A stretch of 47,779 nt of DNA from Candidatus Bipolaricaulota bacterium (GTDB taxonomy: Bacteria > Bipolaricaulota > Bipolaricaulia > Bipolaricaulales > Bipolaricaulaceae): assembly GCA_030550535.1 (NCBI GenBank), contig JAUQPF010000036.1:1-47779 (forward strand), given 5' to 3'. A model generated the notes under the pieces. That model was not told where the DNA came from. It saw only the letters and a list, made by a program, of their open reading frames with translations, and searched no databases. Shown one piece after another: positions 15,752 through 37,552 of this stretch. A program made the translations under genes and the position numbers. Each line of letters opens with the position of its first letter. The first letter of the stretch is position 1.

Positions 15752-15954
15752 CCGCCGGGGTGCCAGGGGCCGCAGCGCAAAAGCCGACGCAGGGCCAACC
15801 ATCCTCCGCGCAGAGGGCCGTGTTTGAGCAGGGCTTGCGCGGCATACTCCGAGCAGCTTGGGTAGAACCGGCAGCGCCGGGGAAGAAGCGGGGAAAGCAC
15901 CCGCTGGTACACCCGGATCGGGAGGACGAGGATCCTCCTCACCACAGCCGCCAT
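15733..15954 (-). CDS. yidD: YidD, membrane protein insertion efficiency factor
   Basis: YidD is a small membrane-associated protein thought to assist YidC-dependent insertion. The 73-aa product has an amphipathic N-terminus ([19 protein letters not shown]) and the cysteine-rich core [15 protein letters not shown] with [14 protein letters not shown], diagnostic of the family. It normally sits between rnpA and yidC, but here it is the last gene of a dinB-barrel-yidD minus-strand group. Its start overlaps the upstream gene by 16 nt, and its end overlaps the convergent amidohydrolase. Confidence 0.95.
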
Positions 15955-17024
15955 CCCGCGGAGATGAGGAGGTCCTGGGTCCAGTTGGGGGCCTCCGCCA
16001 CCTTAGAAAAGCCGACCTGGAGGGTCACGGTGGCCCCGCCCAGGCGGAACACCAGCTGAAACGTGACGTTCTGGGTACCCGCGGGGAGTTGCCCGCGCGG
16101 CTTCACCTGACGCAGGCCGTACTGGGCGGAGAAGGTGGCGAGCTCGTTCAACCGGTAGTTGTAGCTCGCGTTTAGGTTCCACGTGTACTCCTCGAACACC
16201 TGGTAGGGCCCGGAGATCTCCGTTTTGAAGAGGACCTGGGAGCGGGGATCGGGGGCCATGGCTCCCTGCAGGGCCAGGTTGAACGTGAGCTCCGCCCCGG
16301 GCTGCGGCCGCAGAAGGGCGTAGCCCAGCCCGAACTGCACCACCCACCCACAGTACCGTTCCATCCCCTCCTCCGCCAGCACCTCCTCCACAAGGAACAG
16401 GCTTTTGGGGTCCAGGGTGACTTTTACTTCGGCCTCAAGCAGGCGGGCCAAAGCGGCGGCGAGCTCCGCCCGCGAGGCGTAGAGCTTTTCCCGGCCGATC
16501 TCCTGGGCCAGCCGCAGGAGGGTCCCCTCCCGCAGGGCGGCCAGGAGCACCCCGCGCTGCAGAAGCTTTTCCTCCAGGCGCAGGGCCCGCACAAGGGGCG
16601 TGACGTCGGTGAAGCGGCCGTAGCCCACGCCAGCCCGTACCTCCAATCCCGGCCGGGGAAGCCGCGTGTCCAAAAAACCCTCCACCCCACCGAACGCGAA
16701 ATAGGGGATCTCCGGGAAAGGGTACTGCCGGAAGGTTCCGGAGACCTGGGCCGTGGCCCCCGCCAGGGCCACCTGGTACAGGGCGAACTCGCCCCCGAAG
16801 GTCAGGCTGATCCCCTGGGACGGCGCATCCACAAGCCAATCGCCGTTCAGGGTCAGCCGGCCGCTGGCCATGTCCGGCCCCGGGGTGAGGGGATCGTCGT
16901 AGTAGCGGTAGTAAAAGGCCGCGTCCCCCCGCAGGAGGTTCGTGGTCGGCGCTTGGTATTGGCATAAGGAGATCGCCCAACCCAGCGCACCCCAGATCCA
17001 AAAGATCAGAAAGGCGTACCGCAT
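15939..17024 (-). CDS. Secreted beta-rich protein, putative outer-membrane barrel
   Basis: I do not recognise a named family. The 361-aa product begins with a hydrophobic signal segment ([16 protein letters not shown]). It continues with alternating polar/hydrophobic stretches typical of transmembrane beta strands, for example [39 protein letters not shown] and [10 protein letters not shown]. It ends in a strand with a terminal aromatic residue (ISAGWRLW), a usual signal for outer-membrane assembly. A helical insert rich in Leu, Ala and Glu lies near residues 140-225. It is 24 nt downstream of dinB and overlaps yidD. The outer-membrane location is inferred from strand pattern and C-terminus only. 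Confidence 0.6.
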
Positions 17025-17048
17025 GGCCCTTGAGCGTACCGGATGAGC

Positions 17049-33805: not shown

Positions 33806-33864
33806 GGGGCCAAGGGTTGAAAGTCGTGCAGCTCCTCTAAGGGCCGCGGGGGTTGGCCCCAACG

Positions 33865-34782
33865 ATGGGCAACGTGTTTGGCGCTGCCGGAGTGATCTTT
33901 GTTCTCGTAGGCCTTGGGTATCTGGCCCGCTGGATCGGCGTTCTGCGCACTGGCGACGAGCGGGTTTTGAACGCCCTTGTGTACTACTTTGCCCTTCCCG
34001 CTTTTCTCCTCCGGGAACTCGCCCAGGCCACGTATTCCTTGGCCACCTTGCGGTTCGCTGCCGCCGGGGGCATTCCCCTCTTCCTCCTCGTCTTTATCCT
34101 CGTCCTTTTGCGGGGATTGGGCCTTTCCCGCGAACGCTTTTACCTCCTTTCCGCAAGCTCGGTGTTCGGGAGCCTTGCGTTCTTTGGGATCCCCTTCATC
34201 GAGTACGTGGTGGGTGGGGAGGAGGCGCCGAGGCTTGCGGCCCTGGCCGTGGGGCTTCTTGCCCCCTTTGGGGTGGCCTTCGTGCTCACCCTCCTTGAGC
34301 TCCACCGGAGCGAGGCCGTGGGCATCTCCCGCGCGCTGGGCCGGACTCTACGGCGGCTGGAACGCAATCCCTTGATCTTGTCCATCGTTCTGGGTGTGGC
34401 CCTGGGCTTAGGCCAGGTGGAGCTCCCCCGTTTTCTCCTCCAGATCCTCGGCTATCTCAGCGGGACCATGGCTCCGCTGGCCTTGTTCGCCCTCGGCGTT
34501 TTCCTTTACGGTCGGCCCTATAAGGCCCTGCCCCAAGCCTTGGGACTTTCCCTTCTGCGACTCGCTCTGCTCCCCGCCCTCACCTTGCTTTGCGCTCGCC
34601 TTTTGGGGCTCCCTGCGCTTGAGACCACGATCCTCGTGCTCATGAACGGAACGCCTTTGGCGGTGAACATGATCGTCCTTTCCCAACGCTACGAGTTCCA
34701 TGTGGAGGAGATGGCCTCCCTTACCCTTGTGTCCTCCTTGGGCGCCCTCCTCACCCTGAGCCTTTGGCGTCTGGCGCTCTAA
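33865..34782 (+). CDS. AEC-family (auxin efflux carrier-like) transporter
   Basis: This is an integral membrane carrier of about 305 aa with around ten hydrophobic segments, the size and layout of bacterial AEC permeases. Recognisable pieces are VFVLVGLGYLARW-like start IFVLVGLGYLARWIG, NALVYYFALPAFLLRELAQ, FGSLAFFGIPFIEYVVG, NPLILSIVLGVALG and LMNGTPLAVNMIVLSQRY. Substrates in the family include malate and malonate, but none can be assigned here. The ATG at 33865 is preferred to a TTG at 33853; its ribosome binding site is weak. It converges on the broken lipoprotein gene with only 17 nt between. Confidence 0.85.
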   Translation: MGNVFGAAGVIFVLVGLGYLARWIGVLRTGDERVLNALVYYFALPAFLLRELAQATYSLATLRFAAAGGIPLFLLVFILVLLRGLGLSRERFYLLSASSVFGSLAFFGIPFIEYVVGGEEAPRLAALAVGLLAPFGVAFVLTLLELHRSEAVGISRALGRTLRRLERNPLILSIVLGVALGLGQVELPRFLLQILGYLSGTMAPLALFALGVFLYGRPYKALPQALGLSLLRLALLPALTLLCARLLGLPALETTILVLMNGTPLAVNMIVLSQRYEFHVEEMASLTLVSSLGALLTLSLWRLAL

Positions 34783-34799: not shown

Positions 34800-35444
34800 C
34801 TAGGGGGCAGGCGAAGCCACCACGATGTTGTCGAACGCGATCCGCATCACCTCGTTTCCCGTGTAGGAGACGGCGTAAAGTCCAATGACCCCGCCGGTGA
34901 ACGAGGAGTTCGTGGTTTGGTACACCTCTTGATCGTTCACGCGGAAGGTCAGCGAGGGGCCTACTGCGATCACGGTAAGCCGGTTGACGCCTACCCCTTG
35001 AACGATGGACGGAGAAGCGGTCCAGTCTTTGAGGGTGGTCCAGGTTCCGCCGACGACCTACCTCACCCGAAAAGTACCGGCGGGACTGATGACAAACAGG
35101 TAGTAGTTGTTCCAGTCCGTGGACCTAAATATCACGCCTGCTCCAGACTTGTTGGGGATTCCTCCGCGGTGCTCCACCTCTACGGTGAGCACGAAGTCCT
35201 CAAACGAGCCGGTGCTGGGGCATCGCACGCCGGGGACCATGTTGGGCTGTACCTCCCACTGGTACTTACCCTCCGCGATCCAGATGCGGTAACCCTCTTG
35301 CTCGCCCGTCCACCACGGGTTGTTCTCCGCCGAGGAAAAACGCTCCTCGTAGAGCACCTGAGGACCGGGAGGGCCGAAGAGCTGACATCCGGCGAGACCT
35401 AGTCCAATACAGATTAGCCCTGCCCACCTCACGCACTTGCTCAC
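34800..35444 (-). pseudogene. Lipoprotein with LamG-like jelly-roll, interrupted by an in-frame TAG
   Basis: One continuous minus-strand reading frame runs from a GTG at 35444 (preceded by AAAGGAGGGG) to a stop at 34802-34800. It is broken by a single TAG at 35060-35058. The first part (128 codons) has a lipoprotein signal ending LGLAGC, then a beta-rich region with VLYEERFSSAENNPWW, FEDFVLTVEVEHRG and SGAGVIFRSTDWNNYYLFVIS. Beyond the TAG the same frame continues WTTLKDWTASPSIVQGVGVN, RLTVIAVGPSLTFRVNDQEV and GGVIGLYAVSYTGNEV to AFDNIVV. That is the second half of a concanavalin/LamG-like sugar-binding fold. It is either a recent nonsense mutant, a read-through gene or a sequence error. Confidence 0.75.
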
Positions 35445-35525: not shown

Positions 35526-35566
35526 GGAAAAGAAAAAGAAAGGCCGGGCGCAGGGCCCGGCCCTTT
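35526..35566 (-). terminator. Intrinsic terminator after the subtilisin-like protease gene
   Basis: On the minus strand an 11-bp stem, with one G-T pair and a CCTGC loop, is formed by 35566-35555 and 35549-35539. It is GC-rich (GGCCGGGC/GCCCGGCC). The RNA then runs into TTTCTTTTTCTTTT (35541-35528). It lies 24 nt past the protease stop and separates that gene from the lipoprotein downstream. Confidence 0.9.
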
Positions 35567-35589: not shown

Positions 35590-36807
35590 CTACTGCACGG
35601 CCTTGTACGCGTTCACGCGGGGGATGTTCGTGGTGAAGCCCGTGGTGGGATCGCCCGTGGCGATGAGTTTCTGGGCAATTTCCGCGTTCGTCAGCGCGGG
35701 ATAGCGGGCCTTCATAAGCGCGGCCACCCCAGCCACATGGGGCGCGGCCATGGACGTCCCGCTCAGGGACCCATAGTTCCGGGTGCCGATGCGGTTGGGA
35801 TGGTTGGGAAGGGTGGAGTAGATGCTCACCCCGGGGGCGGCGATGTCCACCCACGAGCCGTAGTTGGAGAAGCTCGCCTTGGCGTCGTTTTGGTCTGTGG
35901 CGGCCACGGCGATGCACTCCGGATAGTACGCGGGATAGGTGGGAGCGCTCGTGTTCTCATTCCCGGCGGCGGCCACGAGCACCACGCCTTTCCCGTACGC
36001 GTACTTCACCGCCGCCTCCAAGGTGCTGGAGGTGGAGCTCCCGCCAAGGCTCATGTTGATCACATGGGCTCCGTTGTCCGCGGCCCACACGATGCCGTTG
36101 GCGATCCAGCTATATTGGCCGCTTCCGTTGTCGCCCAGAACCTTCACGTTCATGAGGGAGGTGTTGAACCCCACGCCGGCCACGCCCTTTCCGTTGTTCG
36201 TGATGGCCGCGGCGATGCCCGCGACATGCGTTCCGTGGCCGTAGCGGTCGTCCACCGTGCGGCTGGTGGTGAAGTTCACGTTGGCCACGATCTTGGCCTT
36301 CAGGTCCTCGTGGTCCTGGTCAATCCCCGTGTCCAAAATGGCGATGCGGATGCTTGGGGATCCGGTGGTGAGGTCCCAGGCTTCGGGGGCCTGGATCTTC
36401 GGTAGGGCCCACTGGTTGGCGTAGCCGGGGTCGTTGGGCACAAGAAAGGCCACGGCTACGTAGTCAGGTTCCGCGAATTCCACGAGTTCTTCACGCAAAT
36501 AGGCTTGAACGAAATCCGGCACACGGCCAAGCGGAATGCGCACCACGTGGACATCGATTTTGGGAATGACCTGGACCACTTGGCCGCCCAGACGGGCATG
36601 GATCTCCGCGGCCTTCTCCGGAAGAACCCCGGGTTTGAACCTGACGAGGATCTGATCCGGCGCGTAGGCCGCGCCAGGCACACCCGACGGTGGAGCCGTG
36701 GTCTCCAAAGCCCCCGCGGGCATCTCCGGGGTAGAAAACCGCAGACACCCTGCCAGGAGCGCTCCCAATGCTGTCGAAACCAAAAGTATCCCAATCTTTA
36801 GGCGCAT
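35590..36807 (-). CDS. Subtilisin-like serine protease (S8), lipoprotein
   Basis: This extracytoplasmic protease is 405 aa. The signal sequence ends in the lipobox ALLAGC (Cys21), so it is probably membrane anchored. Residues about 48-120 form an inhibitor-I9-like propeptide (APDQILVRFKPG to VEFAEPDYVA). The catalytic triad is Asp159 (ILDTGID), His191 (GHGTHVAG) and Ser352 (GTSMAAPHVAG). AAAGNENTSAP carries the oxyanion Asn. The layout resembles thermitase/fervidolysin-type enzymes. The frame is open further upstream, but the ATG at 36807 follows GGGGGAGG and begins the signal peptide. A -10-like TATCAT at 36833-36828 lies ahead. Its likely job is degradation of external protein. Confidence 0.93.
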   Translation of the reverse strand: MRLKIGILLVSTALGALLAGCLRFSTPEMPAGALETTAPPSGVPGAAYAPDQILVRFKPGVLPEKAAEIHARLGGQVVQVIPKIDVHVVRIPLGRVPDFVQAYLREELVEFAEPDYVAVAFLVPNDPGYANQWALPKIQAPEAWDLTTGSPSIRIAILDTGIDQDHEDLKAKIVANVNFTTSRTVDDRYGHGTHVAGIAAAITNNGKGVAGVGFNTSLMNVKVLGDNGSGQYSWIANGIVWAADNGAHVINMSLGGSSTSSTLEAAVKYAYGKGVVLVAAAGNENTSAPTYPAYYPECIAVAATDQNDAKASFSNYGSWVDIAAPGVSIYSTLPNHPNRIGTRNYGSLSGTSMAAPHVAGVAALMKARYPALTNAEIAQKLIATGDPTTGFTTNIPRVNAYKAVQ

Positions 36808-36871
36808 GGGCCTCCCCCAACACGGACATGATATCAAGCCACAGCGTCCGTTGGCCAACGCCCGATCTACG

Positions 36872-37552
36872 CTACGCGGAGTCTCTGAAGAAGCGTATCC
36901 AAATCCGCAGGCGCTCGTCGAGGCTGCGGCGCCCCAAAAGGAGGGGGGAGAACCCGGGCAGGACCTCGCGGGGATGGGTCGTGGCATAAAGCCCGTCAAG
37001 CTCGGAAAGAAGCCCTTGGAGGGCTTCCCCAAGGCGCGCAAGATCGGGCTCTATAGGTTGGCCCACAAGGAGAAAAGCCTCAGGATGTTCGAAGCCGCGA
37101 AGCCATATGCGGCTTCCCACGGGAACAATGGGGGTGCGGGCTTTGTGGGCGAGCCACACGGTGCCGCGCTGCAGCTCCCCAAGAGGGCCCGCGGGGCGGA
37201 GCTCGCCCTCCGGGAAAACGGCTACGGCCTCCCCCGCTTGCAGCCGCTTTAAGGCTTCCCGCAAGCGTTTCGTGGAGAGGGCTCCGACGGCCTCCAACAT
37301 GGGGAAAGCCCGCAAGTTCTCTTCAGAGATGAGAAGGTTTCCCCGGATCTTGGCCTTTTGAAAAAGAAGCCAAACGAGGTGCCCGTCGAAGAAGCTGTGG
37401 TGGTTCATGGCGAGGACGAAGGGCGGGGGCGGAAGCTCCCCCTTCACGTACACGCCGCGCAGGTTTTTCCTGAGGCTGCGAAGGAGAACGCGTCCCACAT
37501 GGGGACGAATGGCTCGCCCCAGGACTCCTTCGCGCGCGAAATTCAGGCGCAT
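36872..37552 (-). CDS. PlsC-type 1-acyl-glycerol-3-phosphate acyltransferase family
   Basis: This acyltransferase of the LPLAT/PlsC fold is 226 aa. The catalytic HX4D motif is NHHSFFD (His51, Asp56), followed by ISEENLRAFPMLEAVGAL and the FPEG motif AVFPEGELRP. VPVGSRIWL, near residue 145, matches the VPV block of the family. The most likely role is phospholipid synthesis, but the substrate could be another acyl acceptor. The ATG at 37552 has no ribosome binding site and sits 6 nt after a TACAAT box. The gene is 35 nt downstream of the M3 peptidase on the same strand. Confidence 0.85.
   Translation of the reverse strand: MRLNFAREGVLGRAIRPHVGRVLLRSLRKNLRGVYVKGELPPPPFVLAMNHHSFFDGHLVWLLFQKAKIRGNLLISEENLRAFPMLEAVGALSTKRLREALKRLQAGEAVAVFPEGELRPAGPLGELQRGTVWLAHKARTPIVPVGSRIWLRGFEHPEAFLLVGQPIEPDLARLGEALQGLLSELDGLYATTHPREVLPGFSPLLLGRRSLDERLRIWIRFFRDSA

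Follow-up and report, generated by a model that had tools for sequence, protein, structure and literature searches.

Why a lipoprotein gene should carry a single stop codon in the middle of an otherwise open frame is the question raised by positions 34800-35444 of the window, i.e., the whole 47,779-nucleotide stretch of DNA that was analyzed. The DNA comes from an uncultured bacterium with a Bipolaricaulota-type genome. The lipoprotein frame runs on the minus strand over 214 codons (35444-34803) and is interrupted once, by a TAG at 35060-35058. The stop could mark a gene that has just been lost, an error in the draft genome, a site at which ribosomes read on, or the end of a protein that works in a shortened form.

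Organization and predicted fold of the split gene

The 5' half of the gene (35061..35444, minus strand) comprises 128 codons counted from the GTG start codon at 35444. Its translation begins with an export signal that has the lipobox LAGC at its end and continues, as judged from the relatives and from a Pfam match that appears only when the halves are joined, into the first strands of a jelly roll. The 3' half (34800..35057, minus strand) comprises 85 open codons up to an ordinary TAG stop at 34802-34800. The frame is open on both sides of the internal TAG, as the earlier note had described, and the TAG (35058..35060, minus strand) does not lie in a homopolymer. By themselves, the 85 open codons are weak evidence; 7.5% of shuffles are likewise stop-free over this length. 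The reading of the two halves as one split gene goes beyond chance because homology spans both of them. When the halves are joined, the protein matches PF06439 with 28.8 bits (E = 1.5e-6), which is above the gathering cut-off of 26.8, while the downstream half alone gives an E value of 0.0085 and the upstream half alone has no Pfam match. The domain is of the concanavalin-A-like jelly-roll type (Pfam PF06439). The claim that the downstream codons finish the jelly roll begun upstream is borne out by this joint match and by relatives that align across the stop.

A fold predicted from the single sequence was poor (pLDDT = 46.9) and was set aside; the model used here was predicted from four aligned sequences and contains 14 strands with a mean pLDDT of 77.6. 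Codon 129, which is the TAG, falls in the eighth predicted strand (124-131) in a confident region of the model, and six strands lie wholly beyond it, inside the 3' half. The closest solved fold to the read-through model is CBM66 (Foldseek E = 1.4e-8, TM-score = 0.59 by query and 0.76 by target). The jelly-roll fold is common to the lipoprotein, the PF06439 (3-keto-disaccharide hydrolase) lipoproteins, and the levan-binding modules of CBM66 (PDB accession number 4b1m), whereas the sequence identity is 18-19%. Judged from the match of its fold to CBM66, the uninterrupted protein is probably a surface lipoprotein of a sugar-binding type.

Homologues and loss of the gene in sister genomes

Matches to the lipoprotein were found in 13 of the 60 genomes searched as relatives and in 9 of the 40 genomes of a family-level search, with the genome of the window counted in both cases. 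Among full-length homologues, the nearest share 50-55% identity with the lipoprotein and align across the stop over almost their entire length. The nearest copy of all, in G006, is 69% identical and partial; the start of its contig cuts it so that only the last 98 codons are present. Four of the homologue loci are recorded publicly as metagenome-assembled genomes (MAGs) of Candidatus Bipolaricaulota or Acetothermia. Comparison of the orthologous residue at the TAG position had been suggested beforehand, and the alignments give a uniform answer: the column is lysine in nine of nine aligned homologues and a stop in none (eight of eight in the main alignment, plus AAG in the copy of G060). This count omits the weaker or partial matches L012-L019, among which L016, by eye, is without lysine at this place and was not counted. 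No relative with a 128-residue short form was observed in the genomes searched for homologues.

The upstream neighbor is a subtilisin-like protease (subtilase) gene at 35590..37041 on the minus strand, and the convergent downstream neighbor is an AEC-type transporter gene at 33853..34782 on the plus strand; both were named from their sequences rather than from a family scan. A terminator-like hairpin detected by a consensus scan only (35539..35565, minus strand) separates the subtilase gene from the lipoprotein gene, and for this reason the latter is probably a transcription unit of its own. In G006, the AEC gene beside the lipoprotein gene is a mere fragment with a TGA (C33:313-603, L072), and the neighborhood is decaying there too.

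In G001, G002, and G003, the subtilase gene adjoins the AEC gene with gaps of 166, 158, and 109 bases, respectively, and without a lipoprotein gene. The G001 gap retains a scar of the 3' end, in which 30 of 32 bases are identical to the G006 gene in the matching place and orientation; the scar translates as AFDNVVVTAP followed by a stop, and its score was reached by none of 1000 shuffles. The gaps of G002 and G003 contain no convincing remnant (their scores were reached by 19 and 342 of 1000 shuffles, respectively), and none was found in the 645 bases of G007 ahead of the contig end. In a ClpC tree, the genome of the window stands beside G003, followed by G001 (support values of 0.949 and 0.956). 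The copy in G060 (DSBZ01000139.1), which belongs to another genus of the family, is homologous from the lipobox cysteine on, no longer has a signal peptide, and is interrupted in frame by a TAA of its own where three relatives have AAG; it is an independent and clearly dead copy. Because the gene is absent from G001, G002, and G003, with a scar in G001, and is broken in G060, we regard it as dispensable in this lineage and as repeatedly lost or broken. The earlier note had named further disruptions of the 3' half in sister genomes as evidence that would speak against its account, and such disruptions were found in part, in that the sisters are without the gene or scarred and the copy of the other genus is broken.

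Selection on the 3' half and decoding of UAG

In a comparison of the 3' half with that of G006, dN is 0.219 and dS is 0.844 (dN/dS = 0.26). Among sites at which all four outgroups match the other copy, the lineage of the window has two changes of its own and that of G006 has four; against G006 and the outgroups, there is no sign of relaxed selection and no excess of changes. Because no relaxation is seen, these data fit a stop that is very recent, a base-call error, or a 3' half that is still translated. A low dN/dS does not require translation, since the dead G060 copy is also low when compared with G022 (0.052/0.753 and 0.045/0.377, i.e., 0.07 and 0.12). In simulated neutral decay, the stretch was still open with a probability of 0.71 at 0.05 substitutions per site and 0.53 at 0.1, and the lack of additional stops is not very informative. 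The expectation that decay normally brings frameshifts or more stops is sound for old decay and fails for young decay.

Several observations bear on whether UAG is decoded in this genome. Release factor RF1 is present (467.7 bits against a cut-off of 423.25). No CUA, UUA, or UCA anticodon was found among the 47 tRNAs (Rfam, followed by ARAGORN on the surroundings); the lack of a CUA tRNA is not absolute because the genome is 91.75% complete. Pyrrolysyl-tRNA synthetase (PylS) was far under the cut-off in the genome search, and the RNA past the TAG shows no excess structure (z = 1.17), with 178 of 200 shuffles folding at least as well. TAG terminates 10 of 41 frames in an approximate set of genes from the window, and dinB ends in TAG; the next gene in frame after the dinB TAG (15939-17048, minus strand) is separate and has its own start and signal peptide. 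A codon-usage scan of the window for stop-split genes, which returned mostly shadow frames and neighboring genes and scored the lipoprotein gene poorly, was retained for these rough stop counts only.

The open reading frames (ORFs) of G001 were compared with approximately 394 kb of the genome plus the window (203 comparisons, 68,042 codons), two earlier, unrefined genome comparisons having been swamped by shadow frames. Sixteen stops were flagged, all at sites under another open frame, and were judged by eye, from the comparison output rather than from family searches, to be shadow frames or 5' extensions; no real mid-gene stop was found in the 203 comparisons. The reverse comparison of the genome's own ORFs with G001 flagged 5 in 214. 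In-frame stops are rare, by this comparison, in genes common to G001, which argues against recoding and also against a generally error-rich assembly. That TAG is a normal stop here and that global recoding is unlikely had both been proposed beforehand, and both agree with the use of TAG in the window, the tRNA set, the presence of RF1, and the rarity of in-frame stops.

Two large families were also examined in the genome itself as a yardstick: three of the 60 matches to ABC ATPases contained a stop, as did one of the 45 to permeases. An ATPase gene on C49 contains a TAA in an otherwise intact frame, frameshifted ATPase and permease genes occur on C25 and C49, and a decayed ATPase gene occurs on C4. 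The peptide-transporter-like cluster at C49:53600-56900 (L110, L108) is either a decaying operon or a poorly assembled stretch; its permease gene and one ATPase gene are frameshifted, and another ATPase gene has a TAA past IFQDP. The permease case, an ABC permease on C47 (L107:171-173), is a 538-codon frame that is open except for one in-frame TAG at codon 54, where four of six relatives have lysine, one has arginine, and one has leucine. Apart from the lipoprotein gene, it was the sole gene with a lone TAG encountered in this genome. A homologue of this permease in G005 (C117, L115) is broken too, by a TGA and a TAG, and is split into two matches. A match in the genome resembling a decayed paralogue of the lipoprotein (C3:12682) proved to be a chance frame within ordinary genes, and no match to the lipoprotein gene region was found in a plasmid collection.

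Origin of the stop

Taken together, we consider it probable (approximately 0.72) that the lipoprotein gene, which is dispensable, has recently been inactivated by a nonsense mutation that changed a lysine codon to TAG. The mutation would lie inside the eighth predicted strand of the jelly roll, and RF1 would end translation there in the normal manner. The product would then be a 128-residue lipoprotein that is missing six of 14 strands in the model and is probably misfolded and degraded. We infer that the TAG occurs in the living population and did not arise in assembly, and that the short product is without function. The loss of the gene family in sister genomes makes a real lesion credible.

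The same observation weighs against the notion that a base-call error, an assembly error, or a mixture of strains placed the TAG in the draft genome while the gene of the population is intact. This is a less likely explanation, but the main rival: the genome is a draft of 56 contigs, the named relatives are MAGs, and the frame is perfect apart from the TAG, with selection not relaxed. However, the site is not a homopolymer, and the G001 comparisons, with zero real mid-gene stops in approximately 68,000 codons, suggest that substitution errors that make stops are rare in this assembly.

Read-through of UAG, with lysine or another residue inserted at low efficiency to give a short and a long lipoprotein, seems improbable. 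The purifying pattern of the 3' half and the similar TAG in the C47 permease would suit it, as would a published survey arguing that many in-frame stops of bacteria do not mark pseudogenes (Belinky et al. 2021, PMC7918605). Its cases resemble the lipoprotein in having a TAG within the gene and a dN/dS below 1. However, the survey restricted its stops to those common to orthologues at one position in order to avoid artefacts, whereas the TAG of the lipoprotein occurs in one genome only and in no relative; moreover, a product ending at the TAG would contain half of the domain in the predicted model. Read-through is without positive support because the stop is not conserved, no suppressor tRNA was found, and the RNA past it is not structured. 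Two TAGs at lysine columns, in the lipoprotein and in the C47 permease, count weakly against the nonsense reading (n = 2), and we regard as very improbable the related idea that UAG is decoded as lysine at a low level by a near-cognate tRNA at a few lysine codons that have become TAG, leaving genes such as these two partly expressed. Should peptides show it to be true, it would amount to leaky decoding in a phylum that has been little studied, and only then would the case be important. That the TAG is a new functional end, with the truncated lipoprotein working as a short protein, is hardly to be expected. The signal peptide and lipobox are intact, but the chain would end inside a predicted strand with six of the 14 absent, and the short form occurs in no relative. 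Of the three options offered by the earlier note, a very recent nonsense mutation is therefore the best supported, a base-call error is the main rival, and programmed read-through is improbable.

A literature search on pseudogenes of Bipolaricaulota found nothing. With a recent nonsense mutation as the preferred reading, the locus would be an ordinary case of early gene loss, in which one genome has a fresh lesion, one sister has a scar, and two have nothing. It resembles the young bacterial pseudogenes that carry a single nonsense mutation, which share with it one premature stop, an otherwise intact sequence, a low dN/dS, and loss in sister genomes.
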